In this document: positions 2,982-17,226 of the stretch, in pieces
Layout of the letters: the number at the start of each line of letters is the position of its first letter
Numbering within the stretch: position 1 is the first letter of the stretch
Origin: a virus
Virus record (IMG/VR): IMGVR_UViG_3300030085_000524
Span: 8,927 to 31,999 of that record
DNA: 23,073 nt
Direction: 5' to 3' (one strand)
Made by a program: the position numbers and the translations under genes
The notes under the pieces: generated by a model
What the model was told of the DNA's origin: nothing
Databases searched by the model: none
What the model saw: only the letters and a program-made list of their open reading frames with translations

Positions 2982-3401
2982 TTATTTTTTATCTGTATCA
3001 TTTTTCTTGGAACTACCACCAAAAAAGAAATCAACAATTGTGTTAACTTTTGCACTCATTGCTCCAAAGATAGTTGAAATAAAACTAATTTCAAACTCAC
3101 CTAAGTCAATGTCTCCCAGCACAAAGTGGTTAAACATCACAAAGCTTATACCAAAGTATGCAACAGTGAACAAAGTTGCTAACACCTTTTGGATGATAGC
3201 ATCGTCTTTATACATCTCTCTTGCAGACTTGCGATCTTCTACTTCTTTAGCAAAAGCTTCTTTCTCTGCATCTAACAATACTTTACGTAATTGTAACTTT
3301 GCTTCTTCTCTTTCTTTATCAGTAGTAATTACTTTGTCTAATATACCTTCTGCATTATCTACTACTTTTCCTAATATTCCTCCTAATAAATTCTGTATCA
3401 T
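2982..3401 (-). CDS. holin of the 3TM (GTA_holin_3TM) superfamily
   Basis: This 139-residue membrane protein would form the inner-membrane lesion that times lysis. An N-terminal amphipathic segment (NLLGGILGKVVDNAEGILDK) is followed by a charged helix with SAREM and KDDAIIQKVLATLF. Then come two clear membrane spans at about 72-94 and 103-125, a DFFFGGSSKK turn, and a Lys-rich cytoplasmic tail. This order and the FFGGSSKK ending are characteristic of the 3TM holin family. It starts 1 nt after the stop of the 144-aa gene. The candidate endolysin (DUF5675-like, 4896-5363) is separated from it by two genes. Confidence 0.8.
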   Translation of the reverse strand: MIQNLLGGILGKVVDNAEGILDKVITTDKEREEAKLQLRKVLLDAEKEAFAKEVEDRKSAREMYKDDAIIQKVLATLFTVAYFGISFVMFNHFVLGDIDLGEFEISFISTIFGAMSAKVNTIVDFFFGGSSKKNDTDKK

Positions 3402-3840: not shown

Positions 3841-4896
3841 TTAAGGAATTAAAGTTTTAATAACAACAGTCATTGATATTTGAATAGTATCACCTGTGCT
3901 GCCGTCACCTCTTATAGCTGGATAAATCATATCACCAGCGCTTAATGTAAAATCTCTACTTAAATCTTCTACCTTAGCAGCAACATTATTAAAAGTTCCG
4001 CCATCTTTGTCAGCTGCAGCGTAAGCTCTTAATGTTGCGTTTATAGAATTTGTAGTGCCCCAATCAGGAACACCCACGAACAAACCAGCTGCAAACTGTC
4101 TATCACCGTTAGCATTTCTACCAGCTCCGTATATTCCTACTAACTTACCAGCGTAAGGTACCCTAACACCGGCATGTTGATATTGCTTTGCTACAGATAT
4201 AGTAGTACTACCAACTGTTGTTGCACTTTCATTAGCGTCTATAGTCCAAGTATGGTTTGATATACCGTTACCACCAGGAAACTCCCAATCGCCATTAGCT
4301 TGAACCGTAGAGTTACCTAAGAAAGATATGTATTGATAATGGTATCTAGCATCAACGTGGGACTTTAAACCTGCCGGCGTTACTGCTCTAGCCGTATCAG
4401 TTCCTGTATCAGCTTCTCCAGTTGTTGCTAACTCAACAATACCTTTGTTAGAGTCACTAGCGTCTTCACCTGATATAGTCAACTGTATATCATTAGCTCC
4501 TAAAGTAGAAGAAGCTAAATCTATACCTTCGCCATCAACAAAGTGTATAGTAGCACTACCTGAAGATACAGTTCTAGTGTTTGAGCTTTCGGATATAGCC
4601 ACAGAAGTTACATCACCTGTATTAGATGTAAATCCAGAGTCATTATTTAGGTCGCTTATATTTACGCTGCCCAAACTGTTTTGTCCTGTGCCGCCATTGG
4701 CAACAGGTAGTATACCAGTTACATCACTAGTCAAGTCTGTTGTGCCGCCACCTACAGTATTCTTTACTATCTTGTTATTTGAGTCTAGGCCTAAGTTACC
4801 ACCACTAGCAATAGTACCGGTGCTTACATCTTCTAAGTAAACATCGCTTCTAAATCTAGCAATCAAATCTTGTATGTATTGGCCTATAAACTTCAT
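3841..4896 (-). CDS. tail fibre protein
   Basis: This 351-residue protein has a conserved-looking tail-fibre opening (MKFIGQYIQDLIARFRSDVY), which would be the virion attachment end. The shaft contains GNLGLDSNNKIVKN and VANGGTGQNSLG, a GGTG element recurring in phage fibres and also present in the 507-aa protein here. Residues 145-180 (KGIVELATTGEAD, ARAVTPAGLKSHV) are the usual fibre linker before the tip. Residues 183-351 form a beta-rich C-terminal domain, presumably the receptor-binding tip. The ATG overlaps the TAA of the DUF5675-like gene (TAATG). Confidence 0.8.
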   Translation of the reverse strand: MKFIGQYIQDLIARFRSDVYLEDVSTGTIASGGNLGLDSNNKIVKNTVGGGTTDLTSDVTGILPVANGGTGQNSLGSVNISDLNNDSGFTSNTGDVTSVAISESSNTRTVSSGSATIHFVDGEGIDLASSTLGANDIQLTISGEDASDSNKGIVELATTGEADTGTDTARAVTPAGLKSHVDARYHYQYISFLGNSTVQANGDWEFPGGNGISNHTWTIDANESATTVGSTTISVAKQYQHAGVRVPYAGKLVGIYGAGRNANGDRQFAAGLFVGVPDWGTTNSINATLRAYAAADKDGGTFNNVAAKVEDLSRDFTLSAGDMIYPAIRGDGSTGDTIQISMTVVIKTLIP

Positions 4897-5363
4897 TAAT
4901 CAAAATCTATATATTCTATTGTAACCTCTTGTCCTTCAGCTATCGCTTTTGCAATACTAGGATAAATCCTTTTATACGCATTAACACTCTTTCCAACAAA
5001 ACCATCAGGTAGTAGCTGGTTATTCTCCTGCGCATCACCCACAATAAGACAACCTGCAGTGTGCTCATCAGTGTTCCCAGTATGGATAAGAATATACTCA
5101 AAGTTAGGAACATCAGTGATATGAAGCATACCACGGTGTAAGCCAGGATATTTTTTAGTGTAACGTTCATGGAATCCTCCTTCTTTTCTTAGTTCTATTT
5201 TATACGTGCCAGCAGGTACTCTAGTTTCACCCTTGACTTTTAAAGCTCTACGCTCGTCTTCAAGTGTGTAACATAAAAATCTATTTCCCATAGCAGTCTC
5301 TTCAAACAATAGTCCTGAAGTTGAGTCTGACTCTGAGCTAAATCTTAATACTTTTAGTTTCAT
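4896..5363 (-). CDS. DUF5675-like protein, candidate peptidoglycan-active lysis enzyme
   Basis: This 155-residue protein has no signal peptide. The core (LEDERRALKVKGETRVPAGT, then YPGLHRGMLHI, then LIHTGNTDEHTAGCLIVG) matches the DUF5675 pattern as I know it. The conserved polar residues are H94, H101 and C105 in HTGNxxEHTAGC. A His plus a following Gly-Cys recall the active site of L,D-transpeptidase-fold enzymes, so action on peptidoglycan is plausible, although no biochemistry is known to me. It starts within the stop of the T9SS-cargo gene (ATGA overlap at 5360-5363) and is followed by a fibre gene and the holin. No other endolysin candidate was seen, making this the best one. Confidence 0.7.
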   Translation of the reverse strand: MKLKVLRFSSESDSTSGLLFEETAMGNRFLCYTLEDERRALKVKGETRVPAGTYKIELRKEGGFHERYTKKYPGLHRGMLHITDVPNFEYILIHTGNTDEHTAGCLIVGDAQENNQLLPDGFVGKSVNAYKRIYPSIAKAIAEGQEVTIEYIDFD

Positions 5364-7603
5364 TGTACAATTATTATTGTTGTAAAGCTTACTTTATCTT
5401 TAGTAACTTTTAAGTAGTTTATACCTTTATCTAGTTTTATTCTTTTGGTATCCTTATAGAAAACATGATCTTTACCTAAGTTGTCTATTACTAATACATC
5501 TACCTTTTCTCTAAAGTTTATGTAGTCTCTTGTTGGATTAGGATATGGTATCAGCGCTGACCTTTCATACATTGCTATATCTGTAGGACCAGACCATCCA
5601 TCTTCACAGTATGCATATAATGCATCACATGTTCCATCCCAGGTATCATCGCAACAATATGGATCTACCTGTATCACCCATTCAAAACACTCATTAGGAA
5701 TGTAATATATATCCCCAACGTTGCAACCAGCACTATAATAACACGAACTGTCTGCCACGTTAGCAAGCGGATTGTAATTAACAGCGGTCGCATCAGTGCA
5801 ACCAGGCAAAGGATAAATACAGCTACCATTATCAGTATTTGCATTATCATCATAATTAAGTGCTGTGCTGTCTGTGCATCCATAGTAGTAAGGTATACAA
5901 TTTCCATTATCAGTATTACATGTATCACAATAGTTCCACATTGTAGGATCTATACATCCAAATATAACTGGTATGCATGATCCATCATCTGTGTTAGCTG
6001 TTGGACTGTAGTTAAAGGCTGCGCCATCAGTACAACCTTCAACTACGGGTGTGCACGACCCATCATCCGTATTTGCCAAAGCGTTGTAATTAAAAGCCGT
6101 ACTATCTGTACAGCCTAATACAACGTCTATACATGTACCATTATCAGCATTTGCTAATGGGTTATAATTTATTGCGTCTATATCCATACAGCCGTATACA
6201 AATGGTGTGCATGAACCATTATCAGTATTAGCTAGTGGATTATAGTTAAACATAGTGTCATCAGTACATCCGTACACAAACGGTATACAACTTCCGTTGT
6301 CTGTGTTAGCATTTATATTGTAGTTAAACATACTAGCATCCGTACAGCCATATATGTAAGGTATACAAGTATCAGATGCTGTAGCTAATGGATCATAGTT
6401 AAACATTGTTGGGTCCATGCACCCATATACATAAGGTATGCAAGATCCAACTAGTTCTACATTTGCTAAAGGATCATAGTTATATGCAGTACTGTCCATA
6501 CATCCCAATACAACTAATGTAGCACAACTACCGTCGTCATAATCATAAGAGGCATCATATTCTAAATATATAGGATTAGTACACCCTGGGTTATAGTAAC
6601 AGCTTCCATCATCTGTGTTTACTGCATCATTGTAGTTTACAGCTAAACTATCTATACATCCATATGTTCTTTCTATACATGTATTACCACAATAAGGTTG
6701 TCCTGTAATAGGAAAAAATGGTGGTATAGGATTAACAAAACCGCCCTCTATATCTATTGCGTAATAATCTTCAGAATACAAACTATAACCACATTGTACT
6801 GCGGTAAAGTCTGACTGCTGCGTTATTTCAAATATTGCTCTAACAGGATAACCTGCTGCTAAATTTATAAAGAACGTTGTATCAAAACCATCTACTAAAG
6901 TATAAGTTCCAATGTCTTGATAGTTGAATGGTGGTATTAAACTAGTTGCTTGCGCTAACTTTAAACTAGATCCAGCCCAACCATTACCAGCTAAATCCGT
7001 TAATTCTAACTCATGCATACAGCTATCTATATTTATATCTGTATTAGCTGAGTCTATATAATTATATGCTAATGAGTCTGTACATCCGTATACTTTTGGC
7101 GTAAAACACATACCTGTATCTGCTGTAGCAGCTAAGTCAAACTCTACATAGCTACTATCCATACAACCAAATACTGGTGGGGGCGGAGGACACCCAGACG
7201 TATATATCACATCCCATATTTGAAAACCAAAGTCCGCCATAGGAAGCTCCCATAATGTATCTCCACATTGTTCTATATACACAGAACCATCATTACCACC
7301 CCATAAACTACCTGCTATACCATCACCATAGCTGTCATTAAGCACAAAATAAAAACTATCTACGGGTAAACATATACCTGCATACTGTGGTTCATAGTCT
7401 ATTATATTAGTATATGGGCCACCTTCTAAAAGCGTGTCACCAAAGAAAGTCATTATATACCAAGATGTTTCCTGTGGATACTGATCAGGATTTATAGTAA
7501 CATTTAAACTCCATGTACCTGGAGGGCACTGTCCAAATGCAGTAGCCACAGTAAATACCGTGACCATAATTAGTGTGTATATTATTTTTGTAAAATTATT
7601 CAT
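5360..7603 (-). CDS. secreted GCTD-repeat protein with T9SS C-terminal sorting domain
   Basis: This 747-residue protein begins with a signal peptide (hydrophobic 7-22, likely cut after G24, ATAFG-QC). Residues 26-138 form a Cys-bounded beta domain containing FVLNDSYGDGI, a motif common in T9SS-exported Bacteroidota proteins. A PPPPPVFGC junction leads into fourteen repeats (146-621). Each has the form GCxDxxAxNYN then xxAxTDNGSC, joined by short linkers such as IPYVY. A second beta domain (LTDLAGNGWAGSSLKL) interrupts the array after repeat 2. A Cys-rich block with a W/D pattern follows. Residues 687-747 form a type A T9SS sorting domain: YPNPTRDYINF, VLVIDNLGK, LDKGINYLKV, TTIIIVQ. The predicted route is Sec, then T9SS, to the host cell surface or medium. 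A surface adhesin or exclusion factor is inferred. It overlaps both neighbours. Confidence 0.85.
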   Translation of the reverse strand: MNNFTKIIYTLIMVTVFTVATAFGQCPPGTWSLNVTINPDQYPQETSWYIMTFFGDTLLEGGPYTNIIDYEPQYAGICLPVDSFYFVLNDSYGDGIAGSLWGGNDGSVYIEQCGDTLWELPMADFGFQIWDVIYTSGCPPPPPVFGCMDSSYVEFDLAATADTGMCFTPKVYGCTDSLAYNYIDSANTDINIDSCMHELELTDLAGNGWAGSSLKLAQATSLIPPFNYQDIGTYTLVDGFDTTFFINLAAGYPVRAIFEITQQSDFTAVQCGYSLYSEDYYAIDIEGGFVNPIPPFFPITGQPYCGNTCIERTYGCIDSLAVNYNDAVNTDDGSCYYNPGCTNPIYLEYDASYDYDDGSCATLVVLGCMDSTAYNYDPLANVELVGSCIPYVYGCMDPTMFNYDPLATASDTCIPYIYGCTDASMFNYNINANTDNGSCIPFVYGCTDDTMFNYNPLANTDNGSCTPFVYGCMDIDAINYNPLANADNGTCIDVVLGCTDSTAFNYNALANTDDGSCTPVVEGCTDGAAFNYSPTANTDDGSCIPVIFGCIDPTMWNYCDTCNTDNGNCIPYYYGCTDSTALNYDDNANTDNGSCIYPLPGCTDATAVNYNPLANVADSSCYYSAGCNVGDIYYIPNECFEWVIQVDPYCCDDTWDGTCDALYAYCEDGWSGPTDIAMYERSALIPYPNPTRDYINFREKVDVLVIDNLGKDHVFYKDTKRIKLDKGINYLKVTKDKVSFTTIIIVQ
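5741..7168 (-). repeat. array of fourteen GCTD-type protein repeats
   Basis: The 747-aa gene holds fourteen degenerate units, each starting GCxD and ending xxxC about 20-24 residues later. Twelve follow one another at a spacing of about 25-26 codons; the first two are set apart by a beta domain. Conserved positions are the two Cys, the first Asp, the N(Y/F)N core and a final D(D/N)G(S/T)C. Weaker units include residues 146-165 and the ASYDYDDGSC unit. The paired Cys suggest one disulphide per unit, and the Asp/Asn pattern may bind calcium. DNA identity between units is low, so they are old or under protein-level selection. Confidence 0.85.
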
Positions 7604-8328
7604 TATAAACTATTTCTATCTTTTATGTCTGCTTCTATTAAAGCTATATCTGAATCGCTTACCAGTTCGTTGAAAATAACTACTTCAAAAAATTTAGCGC
7701 CAATTGCTGAAGCACTACTTGTTGATCCCAGTCTAAGTATTCTAAATGTTCCAGAGTTTGAAGCTGGAAAACCACCGCCTAAAGAAGTATCGTCTTCAAA
7801 AAAGTCGACGTTATTACTACCATCTCTAGATATTCTAAATAAAGCTTTACTAGCGCTAGGAGCTGTGCTTGCTGTTATTATACTACTGGTACCATCGAAA
7901 ATAAACCTAAACTTAGCATCAACATTACCATGAGCAAATCTAAAAAAATTGCTTCCTGAACTAGCGCTACCTTGAAATATTGATTCTGCATTTAAGTCAT
8001 CATCTACGTCTACTACTACAAATATTGTAAATGCTCCTGTAAGAACTATTTCAGAATTAAAGTTTGCTTCTGGATATGTACTACCATCTACTTGTTTTAA
8101 ATGTAATGCTCCTCCGGTAAATTCTACTCTATCGTTGGTACCAGAGCTAGCATCGTCTATAGGATTACCTTGACCACTACTATCAGCCCATATAATTCTA
8201 TCACCATCGTCTGATTGGCCTGTGTTAAACTTCAACCAAGTCTGTATACCAGATACATTTGCTATGCTAAATTCTGACAAAGGTCTGTTGCCACTAGATG
8301 ATGCTATATTTGATAATCCTAATCTCAT
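7603..8328 (-). CDS. LamG / concanavalin A-like lectin-fold protein
   Basis: This 241-residue protein has no signal peptide. After a short polar N-terminus, residues 25-238 read as one jelly-roll domain. The order of elements is IQTWLKFNTG, DRIIWADSSGQGNP, VEFTGGALHL, FTIFVVVDVDDD, SIFQGSASSGSNFFRFA, LFRISRDGSN, FRILRLGS, then FFEVVIFNELVSDSDIALIE. The last stretch is the diagnostic end of LamG/ConA-like domains found by eye (fold knowledge, not a search). The domain usually binds glycans, so a fibre tip or accessory adhesin is likely. It lies between an exported thioredoxin-like protein and the T9SS cargo, with TAATG overlaps on both sides, so it may serve the same step as either. Confidence 0.7.
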   Translation of the reverse strand: MRLGLSNIASSSGNRPLSEFSIANVSGIQTWLKFNTGQSDDGDRIIWADSSGQGNPIDDASSGTNDRVEFTGGALHLKQVDGSTYPEANFNSEIVLTGAFTIFVVVDVDDDLNAESIFQGSASSGSNFFRFAHGNVDAKFRFIFDGTSSIITASTAPSASKALFRISRDGSNNVDFFEDDTSLGGGFPASNSGTFRILRLGSTSSASAIGAKFFEVVIFNELVSDSDIALIEADIKDRNSL

Positions 8329-8684
8329 TAAAATTTATTCATTATAAGTTCGTCAATATATGACTGTATCTCTTTTCTTGTAGCTTGTAAAGTAAAACTC
8401 AAATCAGCTTGAAATCTTTTTACTTCTTCGCCTTCATCAAATATTATAATTGTTGGTACAACTGCTATTTGATATTTTTTCTGCATATCGTTTCCGTCTA
8501 TCATATGTGATTCTTTATCGCAATCTCCTAATTTATCAAACCACTCTACTCCATTTTGCTCATTCCAACTAGCATTAAAGTGCATCGCAGTCACCTGAGC
8601 TGAGCACGTAACACAAGCCAGCAACGATGCTAATACAAACAAGTATATCAAAAATATTTTCCATATTCCTTTTAAGTGTTTCAT
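8328..8684 (-). CDS. exported thioredoxin-fold protein lacking the CxxC active site
   Basis: This 118-residue protein has a hydrophobic N-terminal export signal (9-27). Cleavage may occur near SAQ at 28-30, or LLAC at 21-24 may be a weak lipobox. The rest aligns by eye with thioredoxin. HFNASWNEQN (35-44) sits where FWAxWCxxC should be, and VVPTIIIFDEGEEVKRF contains the cis-proline P77, the beta-hairpin and a final helix (QATRKEIQSYIDELI). The CxxC position is N-E-Q-N (41-44), so the redox centre is missing. Only C55 remains in the mature part. It therefore probably binds or scaffolds a partner in the periplasm instead of doing disulphide exchange. It overlaps its neighbours by one base on each side. 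Confidence 0.7.
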   Translation of the reverse strand: MKHLKGIWKIFLIYLFVLASLLACVTCSAQVTAMHFNASWNEQNGVEWFDKLGDCDKESHMIDGNDMQKKYQIAVVPTIIIFDEGEEVKRFQADLSFTLQATRKEIQSYIDELIMNKF

Positions 8685-8959
8685 TATCTTAAATTATCAA
8701 TCTTATCTTCCATTCTGATCATACGCTCTTCAAGCTTCTTAACATCATCACGAGTCTCCATGATTGTATTTCTAATGTTTACATCTTTCATGTCAAACTC
8801 CATTTTTGATACTTCTGGAGCTGGTAACTCTTTTGCTTCTGATATATCTGCCTGTAGTGTAAACCACATACCAACAAGAGTAAAAATAAGTGCTGCAATA
8901 CCTGCTAATGTTTTTATACTTATTTTAAAGCTAGTGTCTTCGTTTAATTCCTTTGCCAT
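8684..8959 (-). CDS. single-span membrane protein with C-terminal coiled coil
   Basis: I place the start at the ATG at 8959 (MAKELNEDTSFKISIKTL), giving 91 residues. The upstream extension would need a TTG at 9007 and would overlap a short ORF in another frame. One membrane span (LAGIAALIFTLVGMWFTLQ, about 19-37) is followed by an acidic segment (EAKELPAPEV) and a charged heptad helix to the C-terminus (ETRDDVKKLEERMIRMEDKI). A small N-in protein with a periplasmic coiled coil would suit an inner-membrane spanin subunit or a lysis regulator. No partner outer-membrane spanin is evident. Membrane-anchored hypothetical proteins of this form are common in marine phages. The ATG lies 1 nt after the upstream micropeptide stop. 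Confidence 0.75.
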   Translation of the reverse strand: MAKELNEDTSFKISIKTLAGIAALIFTLVGMWFTLQADISEAKELPAPEVSKMEFDMKDVNIRNTIMETRDDVKKLEERMIRMEDKIDNLR

Positions 8960-9049: not shown

Positions 9050-10084
9050 CTAAAATATTATATAGTTTATACCTAATTTAAAATCGTACCATTCTTTGTT
9101 CCAGTATTTATTGTACTTACCTTCAACAAAGCATCCTAAATTCTTAGTGGCCTTTAGTCCAAATATCAGTCCTCCTGAGTAATCATACCACTGCTCACCA
9201 TCATTAAAGTTATGATATGAGTATTGTCCGCCATTATCATAGTGATAAGGCATTAGGTTACCCCAAGAATGTAACCAAAAGTTTTTCTTATAGTAGTAGT
9301 AATCAAATCCTAATACCAATGAGTACTGCCACTGATTAGCTAATTCATTCCTTTTCTTTTCTACATACTCTTCTAGAACTTGTGGTATAACCACCTCGTT
9401 CCAAACTTCTGCACTAGTAGCAACAACATTCCCATCAGGGTCGCTATACTCAGATTCAAATACGTCAATACTATACCCCTGCTCAATAGCTAACTGAGTA
9501 TAATGTAAATTACCAGATTGTATTGTCCACTCTTCTAGCGGATCAAAACCATAAGGCTCTGCTAATCTTTGAACAGCGCCGATATTAAATGATAACTTTT
9601 TGTTACCATTCAACCTTAAACGTTGTGAGCTTTCAAAGTACTCTATGTCTGCAAAACCGTCTTTAATGTATTCTATCTTAGCTAACCATTTAGATCTTAC
9701 ATATCTTACAAAATGATGCTGGTCTAAATACTCTACCCCCTCTTGTCTCTTGTAGTTTACTTGAAACAAATACTCAAAAGGATTTCTACCTACATTAGCA
9801 GCATCTGAAAATGAAGACTCTGTACCATCTTTAAATGGTGATGTGCCCTCATACTGAAACCTTTGTATCTTTCGTATGCCCATAGCTAATGAGTAATCAT
9901 ACGGTGTAAATACAGTATCATATACAAGCGTACTACCGTCTACAGAATAAACTTCTCTGTCAGATAAAGATGTACCACCATTTGCTGCTATGTAAAATGT
10001 AGAAAACTTTATAGCCTTCTTAAACTGTGCAGTTGCAGATAGTGATGCAAAAAGAAATACTAGTATAAGTACTCTCAACTTCAT
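9050..10084 (-). CDS. predicted outer-membrane beta-barrel protein
   Basis: This 344-residue protein has a clear signal peptide (hydrophobic 3-15, cut after A19 in SLSATA-Q, a Bacteroidota style). The mature part is rich in aromatic residues with alternating hydrophobic/polar strands, for example WQYSLVLGFDYYYYKKNFWL, WYDYSGGLIFGLKATKN, LGCFVEGKYNKYWNK, ending FKLGINYIIF. A terminal Phe after an amphipathic strand is the usual barrel insertion signal. Longer polar stretches between strands (EYSDPDGNVVATSAEV) look like loops. Phage-encoded barrels such as Lom occur in enterobacterial phages, where they change the host surface. A similar role in exclusion or adhesion is inferred. It is followed after 2 nt by the micropeptide. 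Confidence 0.75.
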   Translation of the reverse strand: MKLRVLILVFLFASLSATAQFKKAIKFSTFYIAANGGTSLSDREVYSVDGSTLVYDTVFTPYDYSLAMGIRKIQRFQYEGTSPFKDGTESSFSDAANVGRNPFEYLFQVNYKRQEGVEYLDQHHFVRYVRSKWLAKIEYIKDGFADIEYFESSQRLRLNGNKKLSFNIGAVQRLAEPYGFDPLEEWTIQSGNLHYTQLAIEQGYSIDVFESEYSDPDGNVVATSAEVWNEVVIPQVLEEYVEKKRNELANQWQYSLVLGFDYYYYKKNFWLHSWGNLMPYHYDNGGQYSYHNFNDGEQWYDYSGGLIFGLKATKNLGCFVEGKYNKYWNKEWYDFKLGINYIIF

Positions 10085-12750: not shown

Positions 12751-15700
12751 TTAATTACCAGGACCTGTTAATCCTACATTAGTGTTTGTATTAACAATTG
12801 CTGATCCATTAACAGTAATTTGTGTTCCTCCAACATTAAACGTGTTAACTACCGTTGTTTCTTCTCTATCTAATTCTCTGTATGCAGGTATTCCACAATC
12901 TTTACAGTACTCTCTTGCAAATTTAATAAATTCTGGTAAATATGTTTCGCTTTCTGTGTGCGTGAAGGTAACGCATCTTTTCCAACCACTAAATGGGCTA
13001 TTTGAAAATGGATCTACATCTAGTCCCGAAGTAGATACTGCTACAAATATAACCCCTGGTAAATTATTAGGGTTAGGAGTATAGGCTCTTTTTACAATTG
13101 TGCCAAGAGTATATGTGCTTGCATTGGCCGGACTCCAAAATAATGAACCATTGTCTAGCCATGATTGTTGGCAATCCACCTTAGCCTCTCCTATATCAGG
13201 AGTTTGTGCATCTGTACAGTTATATATACATGGTAATCCTTTACGATTCATTAGATCGTTTATGATTATCATCTTCATAGTCTCCATATTAGAACAACTA
13301 TTTCCTAATCCTGTAATATGTTTTGTGTAAAATCTATGTCCTGACCTAGCTATACATTCTTCATTATATGCTAAAAGCCTATCTATGTTTGCAGGTATAC
13401 ATGCTGGTATTATAGTTTCTACAGATTCACAATCTTCTATACATCCTACAAAATCATACTCACAAGAGCCATCGTCAAAAGTAGCTGATGGAGTATAGTT
13501 TAGAGCATTTGGATCCATACAGCCTCCTACTGGATTTGGAGGACAGCATGTAGGATCAAATGTACCATCTGGACAAAGACATCCTGTTGGAGGCGGTGGC
13601 GGGGGAGTGTAAGTACATGACCCGTCGTCTACAGTAGCTAAAGGGTTGTAGTTGTTAGCGTTTGGATCAGTGCATCCTTGAACAACAGTAGGTGTGCAAG
13701 ATTTTAAACCAACAGGTATTTGGGTACTTATCATAGCACATGCGTTTGATGCCATACCTCCTCCCGGAGTGTCCATTCCTGGATATGCTAAATTACCGTT
13801 ACCATCTATATATCCATCTGCATAAAAACTTATATATATCTGATAGTTGCCACTAAAAAGTCCTGTTATTGAAGTTTGTTGTGTAGGGTTATTTTGAACC
13901 ACGCTATTTGCAGTAGTTAATTCACCAGACTGTGGACCTGGAATAGGGCCGCTGTTAATATCAAAATAACCACTGTTGTAGCTAGTGTACACTATATCTA
14001 AATCTGTGTTCCAATAATGAATAGTATATAGTATTCCGTTTGGATTTGCTGTTGGAAACAAAGCTACAACTGATTGAGGCAGTTGTACTGTAATCTGCCC
14101 AGTCTCTATATCATCACACAATCCTGTAGTAGCATTTAAAATAGAATCTGAATCGTATGATACTACTGGTCCTGAAGTGAGTATTGAGTTAGTTAGATTA
14201 GTACAGTCTGTATTAGTCTGTAATCCTCCACAGCCAGCATCTTGACACAATGCCTGTGTAGCATACCCAAAACTACTATTTGGATCAAATATACAAGAAG
14301 CTGTAGTTTGATCGCATACCCAAGTTCCAGTAGGAGCAGGGTATTGACAAGTCCCATCATCAATTGTTGCAGAAGGGTTAAAGTTAATTGCTAAAGGATC
14401 TGTACATCCTGCTACAGGAGGTGGTGGTGGATACTGACAAGAGCCGTCATCAACTGTAGCTAGGGAATTATAGTTAGAAGCAGCAGGATCAGTACAACCT
14501 AAAATAGGCGATGGCGTTCCAATGCAACAAGCTTCCATTAAATTTAATTCAGCTGTAGTAAAGGTATGTGTTTGACTGTATGTGTGCTCCCAAACTCCGA
14601 ATGTTCCAAAGTTATATGAGTAAGTTAAAGATACTGGAGGATTTGTAATCTGACAACTAGAGTAAAAAGGAAGACTCAGATCAAAGGTGTAACCAGGAAA
14701 CTGTGAATCTAACCAAGGAGGTCCCCCATATGCATCTTGATGTGCTGGTGTAAAAAACTCATGCATCAACTGCTGTCCACTTCCTGGAGGTGCTCCAAAT
14801 GATATAGGATTAATAGATAAAGTAGTACCATCAGCGAAGGTAATAAAAATATCCATTTCAATGTAGCTAAGACCAGAAGGGAAGTTGTTATTACCTGCAG
14901 GTCCTGGATTTGTGCCGCCCCCACTAAGCTGAAAGGTAGTAAAATCTTGACCACCGTTCAGTAGTACAAAATTATTCACTCCAGGAGCTGGAGTATAGTT
15001 TGTTCTACCGTAAAGGTAAAAGTTACTTGGAAGATAATTTATAAGAGCAGTCTCACCATTAAGTGCATTTTGTACTAAAAAGTTTCCATTAGAATCGTAT
15101 AAAGCTGGATTGTCAGAAGCTTCAAAACAAAATATTTCACTAAATATATAAAAGTTTGCTATGTCAAGAACGCTATGGATAGCAGGATCTACAAAAGTTC
15201 CCGCAGCCGGACCTTGAGTAATAGTAAACCCATTGTTTACTGCATCTATTAAACCCGGGTTGTCACCAAGTAAAGGTGAGCCCATACTAATAATAGGAAC
15301 TCCGTTGTTTTGACAGTTAACAATTATTGGAAAATCTATAGCCCCATCACAATTATTTGATGGAGGAAACATACAACTGCCATCATCAAAAGTTGCACTT
15401 GGATTAAAGTTTGTAGCTGTTCCATCAGTACATCCACCTTGGCCTACATCATAAGTACCAAATACTTCATAACACTGTTCTACCTCATCGTCTCCATCTT
15501 GTGTGCCATCATTATCATAAACTACAGCAATTGCATATGTTCCTGCAGCAAGTCCTGTAAAAGTGTTAGATCCCCCAGTTGTTGATGCCGTAGTTACTAG
15601 CGTAGAATTAGCTGCTAATAAAGTTAAACCATTTTGTCCGTTATTTACAGCGTTAGCTACTCCTGCAAAGCTAAATCCTGGATCAAGTAAAAATAATCTA

Positions 15701-17226
15701 TAATCTATAGGAGATGCTTGATTACTGCTTGTAAATTGAGCAGAAGGATCAAAATTCAAAGGAGTTGGGGGAGGTAGTACTGAATATGTAGATGCAAAAT
15801 TAATTCCTGGGAATACTATAGCTCCATCAGATAAAGATGTTCCTGAAGGGTTACTAGTAGCAGCCTGCTGTGTTGTTCCTAATATTTCTTCAACCCATGG
15901 ACCTAATGTTATCGGATTAGTAGCATCTGAAAATAATTTACCAGTTACCTCATCACAAAATACACAAGCTTTATCACTGTGGGTATCTGCACTGCTATCA
16001 TAGTTAATAGCACTAGCAGTATCTTTACAACCAAAATCACCATCTGGATTTGTATCAGGGTCTGATGGAATTGTAATAGGAAATCTTGCACTACAAGATG
16101 TGCCAGAAACATTAGAATCTGATACACTTAGCTCATAGGTACCAGGTAATAAATTAGATACAGTAAATGTACTAGTTGTTATACCTGTAGTAGTTTGAAG
16201 GTTTCCTGAATTAAATACTAAACTTGGATTTTCTAAAGAAATATCATCTATTTGGACTGTAAAGTTTGGTGTACCATTTGTAACAGTAACATCAATAGAA
16301 CCATTTGCTGTATCTATAGATGCATTAACAACATTGCTAGTGACTACGGAATAATCATCACATCCCTCTATATACGTACAACACGATCCTGATACGGCAG
16401 TGCTTGAATTTATAATAGTAGAAGTTAGAGCAGTACCATCACAGTCGTTTGCATGTGCAACTCCAGAATCTGTACATGGATAGTTTTCACCAACACATCC
16501 TTTTAAATAATAGTTTGTAGCTGCAGGATCTAAACAAACTTCTATTACACTAGAAGTAGACTCTAACGAAACAGAAAATAATCCACCAGTAACCACTGGT
16601 CCTGATAAATTTATATCAGGAGATGCAGTAATTCCTAAAGAGGTATTATCATCAGAACGCCCTCGAAACTTACCTAGGTCAGAACTAAGAGAACCCTTAT
16701 TAGTATATTTAATATTATTTAAAAAGCTATTCTGTAAAGAAGTAGAAGCTATATACGGAGATGATCCGTCAGATACGTAGTAAAAATCTTTAGTGCTACT
16801 TGTGTCTAAATGTGGGTTTTTAGATTCTGGAAATACTACTAACTGTTTGTAGGAAGTTCCCTCAGCATAATATAAAGCATCGCTTATGTCATACCCATCT
16901 TCACCTTGAGTTGCATCAAATCTAAAAGTTCTAGTAAGTGAATCAAAAGGAACTGTTAATTGATTAGCTGTTGGAACATCTGCAATAGTCGCAGATTGAG
17001 TTAGGCCTGACTCAAAATTTAAAGTCACTGCGCCTGATCCAGTGTATTCTATAATTATTTCTGAGTGTCCTTCTTTAGAGATTCTTCTGCTCTCACTTGA
17101 AACTCTAACACCAGATCCTGATGTAATACTATTTATTTTATCAGTTGCATGAGATATAAATATTGCATAATTTACACCTGCAGAATCCTTAAGATACTTT
17201 ACTGAATAAAAAGTCTGTCTAGCCAT
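12751..17226 (-). CDS. giant mosaic tail adhesin with GCTD repeats and SprB-like domain
   Basis: This 1491-residue protein is the largest in the window and has no signal peptide, so it is probably a virion protein. Residues 1-110 look like an attachment domain (MARQTFYSVKYLKDSAGVNY). Residues about 298-384 resemble SprB repeats of gliding Flavobacteria (NGSIDVTVTNGTPNFTVQI, LLPGTYELSVSDS). Six GCTD units start at 399, 598, 910, 940, 1184 and 1235, each with GCxDxxAxNYN and DDGSC and mostly 21 residues long. Pro tracts (PPPPPVAG, PPPPPPTG) link some of them. Residues 965-1000 carry a different Cys motif (WVCDQTTASC, LCQDAGCGG). The C-terminal 250 residues are Cys-rich and end in a fibre-like tail. 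Adhesion to host glycans or surface proteins is inferred. It begins 2 nt after the Cys-rich 166-aa gene. Confidence 0.75.
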   Translation of the reverse strand: MARQTFYSVKYLKDSAGVNYAIFISHATDKINSITSGSGVRVSSESRRISKEGHSEIIIEYTGSGAVTLNFESGLTQSATIADVPTANQLTVPFDSLTRTFRFDATQGEDGYDISDALYYAEGTSYKQLVVFPESKNPHLDTSSTKDFYYVSDGSSPYIASTSLQNSFLNNIKYTNKGSLSSDLGKFRGRSDDNTSLGITASPDINLSGPVVTGGLFSVSLESTSSVIEVCLDPAATNYYLKGCVGENYPCTDSGVAHANDCDGTALTSTIINSSTAVSGSCCTYIEGCDDYSVVTSNVVNASIDTANGSIDVTVTNGTPNFTVQIDDISLENPSLVFNSGNLQTTTGITTSTFTVSNLLPGTYELSVSDSNVSGTSCSARFPITIPSDPDTNPDGDFGCKDTASAINYDSSADTHSDKACVFCDEVTGKLFSDATNPITLGPWVEEILGTTQQAATSNPSGTSLSDGAIVFPGINFASTYSVLPPPTPLNFDPSAQFTSSNQASPIDYRLFLLDPGFSFAGVANAVNNGQNGLTLLAANSTLVTTASTTGGSNTFTGLAAGTYAIAVVYDNDGTQDGDDEVEQCYEVFGTYDVGQGGCTDGTATNFNPSATFDDGSCMFPPSNNCDGAIDFPIIVNCQNNGVPIISMGSPLLGDNPGLIDAVNNGFTITQGPAAGTFVDPAIHSVLDIANFYIFSEIFCFEASDNPALYDSNGNFLVQNALNGETALINYLPSNFYLYGRTNYTPAPGVNNFVLLNGGQDFTTFQLSGGGTNPGPAGNNNFPSGLSYIEMDIFITFADGTTLSINPISFGAPPGSGQQLMHEFFTPAHQDAYGGPPWLDSQFPGYTFDLSLPFYSSCQITNPPVSLTYSYNFGTFGVWEHTYSQTHTFTTAELNLMEACCIGTPSPILGCTDPAASNYNSLATVDDGSCQYPPPPPVAGCTDPLAINFNPSATIDDGTCQYPAPTGTWVCDQTTASCIFDPNSSFGYATQALCQDAGCGGLQTNTDCTNLTNSILTSGPVVSYDSDSILNATTGLCDDIETGQITVQLPQSVVALFPTANPNGILYTIHYWNTDLDIVYTSYNSGYFDINSGPIPGPQSGELTTANSVVQNNPTQQTSITGLFSGNYQIYISFYADGYIDGNGNLAYPGMDTPGGGMASNACAMISTQIPVGLKSCTPTVVQGCTDPNANNYNPLATVDDGSCTYTPPPPPPTGCLCPDGTFDPTCCPPNPVGGCMDPNALNYTPSATFDDGSCEYDFVGCIEDCESVETIIPACIPANIDRLLAYNEECIARSGHRFYTKHITGLGNSCSNMETMKMIIINDLMNRKGLPCIYNCTDAQTPDIGEAKVDCQQSWLDNGSLFWSPANASTYTLGTIVKRAYTPNPNNLPGVIFVAVSTSGLDVDPFSNSPFSGWKRCVTFTHTESETYLPEFIKFAREYCKDCGIPAYRELDREETTVVNTFNVGGTQITVNGSAIVNTNTNVGLTGPGN
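13462..13677 (-). repeat. two GCTD-type repeats (units 5 and 6) of the 1491-aa adhesin
   Basis: Two 63-bp units (13615-13677 and 13462-13524) each encode a 21-residue GCTD repeat (GCTDPNANNYN and GCMDPNALNYT openings, both ending DDGSC). The sequence between them encodes a proline tract and a Cys-rich stretch (CLCPDGTFDPTCCPP). The units are more alike in protein than in DNA. Confidence 0.8.
14347..14499 (-). repeat. two GCTD-type repeats (units 3 and 4) of the 1491-aa adhesin
   Basis: Units at 14437-14499 and 14347-14409 each encode 21 residues (GCTDPAASNYN and GCTDPLAINFN openings). They are joined by QYPPPPPVA, a linker almost the same as the one before the first repeat of the secreted 747-aa protein. 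Units 1 (15964-16032, 23 residues) and 2 (15373-15435, 21 residues) lie singly upstream in the same gene. Confidence 0.8.

Follow-up and report, generated by a model that had tools for sequence, protein, structure and literature searches.

What a phage would do with an outer-membrane protein of its own is the question raised by an open reading frame at positions 9050–10084 (minus strand) of the window, i.e., the whole stretch of 23,073 nucleotides analysed here, which covers bases 8927–31999 of the 31,999-base virus record IMGVR_UViG_3300030085_000524. A first-pass annotation, which omitted the strand, described the product as an outer-membrane barrel encoded by the phage, with a signal peptide of the Bacteroidota type, that might block receptors or alter the host surface during infection. 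The description of the protein has stood, whereas the proposed role is somewhat disfavoured by the conserved turns of the barrel, its obligate partner genes and the lysis genes nearby.

The barrel gene and its predicted fold

The record comes from a marine crAss-like phage, of which it is a fragment, since the major capsid protein has its match in the crAss-like capsid family phrog_11589 (1.7e-86 in a profile search) and is about 30% identical, over 93%, to cr6_1, cr10_1 and other crAss-like records; the host is presumably a member of Bacteroidota. In a related record (G036, the source of locus L057) the capsid match is split (C1:15999-17326) and one piece contains an in-frame TAG, possibly reflecting the stop-codon recoding known in some crAss-like phages, or else a frameshift. 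The barrel gene lies in the structural and lysis region, in keeping with the late region named in the first pass: the capsid gene is upstream in the direction of transcription, and downstream are genes for a DUF5675 (phrog_1501) protein (4896–5363, minus strand), which is likely lysis-associated, and for a holin-like protein (2982–3401, minus strand). The DUF5675 protein weakly resembles the Tlde1 L,D-transpeptidase-like domain (E 0.0074) and is a candidate for an unusual endolysin of this phage group. Judged by eye, another late-region product, a 376-aa protein encoded at 1835–2965, resembles a calcineurin-type metallophosphatase; its NCBIfam match is only weak. No integrase was apparent in the ORF list of the 32-kb record, which is only part of a larger genome; tRNA genes were not found, and a promoter and terminator scan gave no clear excess over shuffled sequences.

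The ORF is complete, with its ATG at 10084 and its stop codon ending at 9050, and encodes 344 residues, the predicted mature chain starting at Gln20. The Sec signal peptide (residues 1–19, MKLRVLILVFLFASLSATA; 10028–10084, minus strand), predicted to be cut before Q20 and retained in all three clades of relatives (A, B, and C), is the one recognized in the first pass by its ATA-Q ending. The C-terminal phenylalanine singled out there is also present: the chain ends in GINYIIF, an aromatic/hydrophobic insertion signal. Of 111 clade-A proteins, 95 end in Phe; the final residue is L or R in most clade-B proteins and L in clade C. Purifying selection on the gene is strong, with pairwise dN/dS of 0.057–0.082 against four relatives that are approximately 84–89% identical; this, together with the length and ends kept throughout the family, argues against a chance ORF. 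As a separate observation, 36 of the 111 clade-A barrels (L010, L013, L015, L023, L052, and others) have a lipobox-like start, SC-x-x-PKKCC-SQ, in place of the ordinary signal peptide. The same start occurs on one protein of the clade-A accessory family described below (again L052), so that signal peptides look exchangeable as cassettes.

AlphaFold2 models built from 45 clade-A sequences (pLDDT 71.7) and, for the mature chain, from 102 sequences of all clades (pLDDT 81.1, pTM 0.76) both contain 12 long strands. A Foldseek search of the PDB placed the 12-strand porin NanC on top (E 2.9e-06, probability 1.00), followed by BamA of F. johnsoniae and E. coli, invasin, FapF, COG4313, and further membrane barrels. 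Essentially all of the 50 PDB matches listed are transmembrane beta-barrels, and no virion fibre is among them. The best match among viral models, BFVD A0A516LKJ4 (342 aa, TM 0.70, E 4e-25, 24% identity), extends over the whole length and is probably a true homologue; it is followed by phage DUF481 and OMP entries. The full-length fold matches suggest that the barrel is closed. Modelling had been expected to return a barrel rather than another fold or a known fibre domain, and this is what emerged. The aromatic alternation offered as support in the first pass is a weak argument by itself: a crude dyad-repeat count in the single sequence was 50 against a shuffle mean of 39 (p = 0.19), and it was dropped as proof. 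The assignment is instead based on the models, the Foldseek matches, and the conservation of lumen-facing positions, and an outer-membrane location is likely.

Given the usual topology of such barrels, both termini are predicted to be periplasmic. Long predicted extracellular loops are L1 (residues 37–63), L4 (176–250), and L5 (282–300); the 75-residue L4 (9335–9559, minus strand) has a conserved YGxxPxE entry and a 23-residue helix. On the opposite side, a 30-residue turn (residues 73–102; 9779–9868, minus strand), predicted to be periplasmic from the model and the usual topology, is unusually long and has low pLDDT, and holds R75, F76, Y78, E79, G87, and E89, conserved across clades. Residues common to the three clades include K26, T29, R71, R75, Y78, E79, G87, E89, E104, K136, R155, R173, Y178, H272, H281, D301, E321, W328, and N340, several of which sit in the predicted periplasmic turn. 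In nearly all strands, conservation is higher at lumen-facing than at lipid-facing positions (e.g., entropy of 0.12 vs. 0.91 in strand 10). Mean entropy is 0.75 over the strand positions as a whole. The short turns predicted to be extracellular are near-invariant (L2 0.40, L3 0.04, L6 0.31); the longer loops (L5 0.89, L4 1.04, L1 1.31) are about as variable as lipid-facing positions, and none is hypervariable.

A viral family with fixed partner genes

A profile-guided scan of IMG/VR confirmed at least 592 relatives, which make up clade A; clade B comprises at least 276 viral contigs and clade C 26. The latter two, reached through a distant match in a metagenome-assembled genome (MAG) and through a locus brought in by a partner gene, are approximately 30–35% identical to the window protein and to each other. 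Searches with the barrel in Pfam, PHROGs, NCBIfam, PADLOC, and PDB sequences returned nothing above noise (for Pfam, among 45 family members; for NCBIfam, with the window protein). Isolate phages (INPHARED) gave no tblastn match to five family members from the three clades, and likewise none to the tm protein described below. Among about 690 Bacteroidota genomes (396 from across the phylum and 298 from the order of one carrier MAG), the sole match was that already known MAG; a cellular origin of the barrel was set aside on this ground, and the family is, as far as sampled, a virus family. Two contigs with the module or its barrel (L085, L086) are binned into Nitrosopelagicus and Maricaulis MAGs, unlikely hosts, and are probably mis-binned phage contigs. 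At locus L317 (7941–9131) the barrel gene is in two pieces (206- and 158-bit halves), being either a broken copy or an assembly error.

The first-pass annotation treated the gene singly and missed that the barrel is one gene of a conserved module of three or four genes. Directly downstream of it in the window are tm and trx. The former (8684–8959, minus strand), whose homologues share its ATG start, encodes a short cytoplasmic N-terminus, one transmembrane helix, and a coiled-coil-like periplasmic tail, judged by eye from its heptad-like pattern; in this predicted orientation it resembles a type II inner-membrane protein with a periplasmic coiled coil. The latter (8328–8684, minus strand) encodes a signal sequence and a thioredoxin fold that lacks CXXC and keeps the VVPT cis-Pro loop, recognized by profile (best PDB match E 1.1e-07). 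The next gene (7603–8328, minus strand; 241 aa, phrog_4390), LamG-like by eye, is an insertion outside the conserved core.

We detected tm in 189 of the 204 non-redundant loci and trx in 190; the members of the triad share a strand throughout (204 of 204). When the count is limited to loci whose barrel is flanked by five or more genes on both sides, both partners lie within five genes of it in 98 of 98 cases (49/49, 35/35, and 14/14 in clades A, B, and C). The order varies: the pair may precede the barrel (tm-trx-barrel), follow it (barrel-tm-trx), or stand on both of its sides, yet the three genes stay together. A changing order combined with constant togetherness argues for functional linkage over inheritance of one arrangement. 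In some clade-B loci (L299-L302, L289, L290, L313, L326), two tm-trx pairs flank a single barrel gene, one on each side. Pairwise distances of barrel and trx correlate at 0.62 in clade A and 0.56 in clade B, compared with 0.49/0.54 and 0.29/0.17 for the barrel and the lysis genes; this is no more than a modest hint of co-variation. Within the 32-kb record, trx alone has a lipobox candidate; in the trx family the motif is limited to a minority of members and is not conserved. No description of the triad was found in the literature searched, which covered few subscription journals; the module appears to have been unnamed until now, and no profile library searched contains the barrel family.

The fourth gene is specific to clade A. 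In the window it occupies 5360–7603 (minus strand) and encodes 747 residues with a signal peptide, GCTDxxAxNYxxxANTDDGSC repeats, and a C-terminal YPNP region resembling the sorting domain of type A cargo of the type IX secretion system (T9SS). TIGR04183 is matched by 14 of 17 members (best 1.7e-14), the window copy falling below the cut-off (E 0.0095), and export to the cell surface is predicted. The gene stands beside the triad in 45 of the 49 clade-A loci and is absent from all 35 of clade B and all 14 of clade C. An earlier example of T9SS cargo encoded by a phage is that of Cryophage (PMC7468147), likewise with a type A sorting domain for export by a Bacteroidota host. The Cryophage cargo consists of variable enzymes, whereas clade A has one repeat protein, tied to the barrel module in about 90% of loci. 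The repeat, in the form GCTDxxAxNYxxxA(N/T)xDDGSC, recurs in a 1491-aa protein (12751–17226), probably structural, as though a single repeat served at the cell surface as well as in the virion.

Lysis context and the proposed envelope bridge

An endolysin-type gene, i.e., an M15 peptidase (phrog_894, lysis) or a DUF5675 protein with a presumed lysis role, is present in 126 loci. In 67% of these it is at most two genes away from the module, compared with 19% for other genes. The module thus shares with spanins the position beside endolysin and holin genes. Of the 35 clade-B loci, 29 have a holin-like gene nearby. Clade-A loci often have the lysis gene at a distance of several genes from the module.

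We propose that the barrel forms the outer-membrane part of an envelope-spanning module that the phage encodes and expresses late. The host BAM machinery would insert it into the outer membrane; the conserved periplasmic turn 73–102 would bind trx as a putative docking site, and trx would link onward to the coiled coil of the inner-membrane protein tm. At the end of infection such a bridge would breach or destabilize the outer membrane, the job of an o-spanin/i-spanin pair. The first steps, i.e., localization of the barrel to the outer membrane and its membership in the module, are likely, and we hold them with considerable confidence. That the module serves to breach the outer membrane in the manner of an o-spanin is plausible but tentative, although we prefer it to any other single reading. 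A more doubtful extension is that the barrel, trx as a periplasmic adaptor, and the inner-membrane coiled-coil protein tm form a trans-envelope bridge that would be a categorically new kind of phage envelope machine, taking the place of spanins across a large group of phages of marine Bacteroidota, with the outer-membrane protein as the o-spanin.

The breaching role is suggested by the barrel fold, the obligate linkage of the three genes, their portability and divergence, the lysis context, and the lack of any other lipoprotein candidate in the 32-kb record. A survey of spanins lists Bacteroidota phages with none and states that an outer-membrane protein could act as the o-spanin (PMC6139136). 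Besides the distance of the lysis gene in clade A and the modest co-variation with trx, three points weigh on the other side. Firstly, the coiled-coil tail of tm, about 50 residues, is short for a classical i-spanin. Secondly, conservation of the lumen-facing positions suits a channel or a binding site at least equally well. Thirdly, the record is a fragment and unimolecular spanins have been reported in Bacteroidetes phages (PMC12596118), so that a canonical spanin may be encoded elsewhere in the genome. The two-component spanin Rz/Rz1 of phage lambda resembles the module in combining an inner-membrane protein bearing a periplasmic coiled coil with an outer-membrane component, in side-by-side genes near the holin and endolysin, and in a bridging topology, which for the module is a predicted one. 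The outer-membrane component of Rz/Rz1, however, is a small lipoprotein, whereas that of the module is a barrel, accompanied by an additional thioredoxin-fold protein. As the small outer-membrane lipoprotein that marks spanins is replaced by a barrel, we do not file the module as a spanin and consider it only possibly spanin-like in action.

Alternative roles of the barrel

Phage-encoded outer-membrane barrels as such are already known, coliphage Lom and the PA-2 porin Lc among them, and coliphage outer-membrane proteins are known to block receptors. Superinfection exclusion or surface remodelling, in which the barrel, together with the exported partner in clade A, would alter the infected surface so that other phages cannot adsorb, has this precedent in its favour, as well as the predicted surface export of the clade-A partner. 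Still, we regard it as rather unlikely. The near-invariant short extracellular turns, longer loops that are not hypervariable, and conserved lumen-facing residues argue against a fast-evolving receptor mask, although the loop criterion is a soft one; a position near the lysis genes is late for exclusion; a simple surface block needs no obligate inner-membrane and periplasmic partners; and clades B and C manage without the exported protein. The known phage-made barrels of host outer membranes, which besides Lom and Lc include cyanophage DUF680-type barrels and the OMP of Aeromonas phage phiAS5, are single genes. Some are weak fold matches of the window barrel, which has fixed partners and no sequence relation to them. 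For phage T9SS cargo, superinfection-related roles were proposed by the authors of the Cryophage study (PMC7468147).

Also unlikely, though with structural arguments of its own, is a substrate-specific channel through which a particular, perhaps anionic, solute or polymer would cross the outer membrane to the benefit of the infection, with the partners gating it or passing it on. The lumen-facing positions are the most conserved and include the invariant charged residues R71, K136, R155, R173, and E321, and the solved structures closest in fold are specific 12-strand channels, NanC and FapF among them. On the other hand, no link to uptake or metabolic genes is apparent in about 200 neighbourhoods, and the late, lysis-side position does not suit such a function. 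The likeness to NanC/KdgM channels lies in the 12-strand fold with both termini periplasmic. The identity to NanC is 8%, and the barrel has no profile match in the PDB; NanC (204 residues) is too small for both the 75-residue helix-bearing loop and the 30-residue predicted periplasmic turn; and the barrel, unlike NanC, is phage-encoded with two fixed partner genes.

It is improbable that the barrel acts as an export or anchoring partner of the clade-A repeat protein, as PorP/SprF does for gliding adhesins. The gene of that protein, with its type A-like sorting domain, adjoins the triad in 45/49 clade-A loci, but the triad is complete without it in 35/35 clade-B and 14/14 clade-C loci, and the barrel has no match to the PorP/SprF family profile (Pfam, 45 members; NCBIfam, window protein). 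A barrel mainly serving this cargo was therefore set aside. An outer-membrane enzyme barrel acting at lysis as a lipase, LPS deacylase, or protease seems no less improbable. Many polar residues are invariant, including H272, H281, D301, and E321, but no conserved serine is shared by the three clades, making an OmpLA- or PagL-like serine/histidine site unlikely, and no such enzyme barrel is among the 50 fold matches listed; a serine-hydrolase barrel was accordingly dropped. Lastly, a virion component, e.g., a tail or decoration protein, is hardly credible: small virion-like and fibre-like genes do flank the barrel, but the signal peptide is present in every clade and the fold matches are membrane barrels, not virion proteins.

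The proposed role in breaching would bear on a step of phage biology that is largely unworked, namely, outer-membrane passage by Bacteroidota phages, which are among the commonest in the sea and gut. The module provides a concrete candidate for an o-spanin stand-in, carried by nearly nine hundred viral contigs, if not more. Even if the barrel should prove to be a channel or an exclusion factor, it represents a large, unannotated, and highly conserved viral family with fixed partners.
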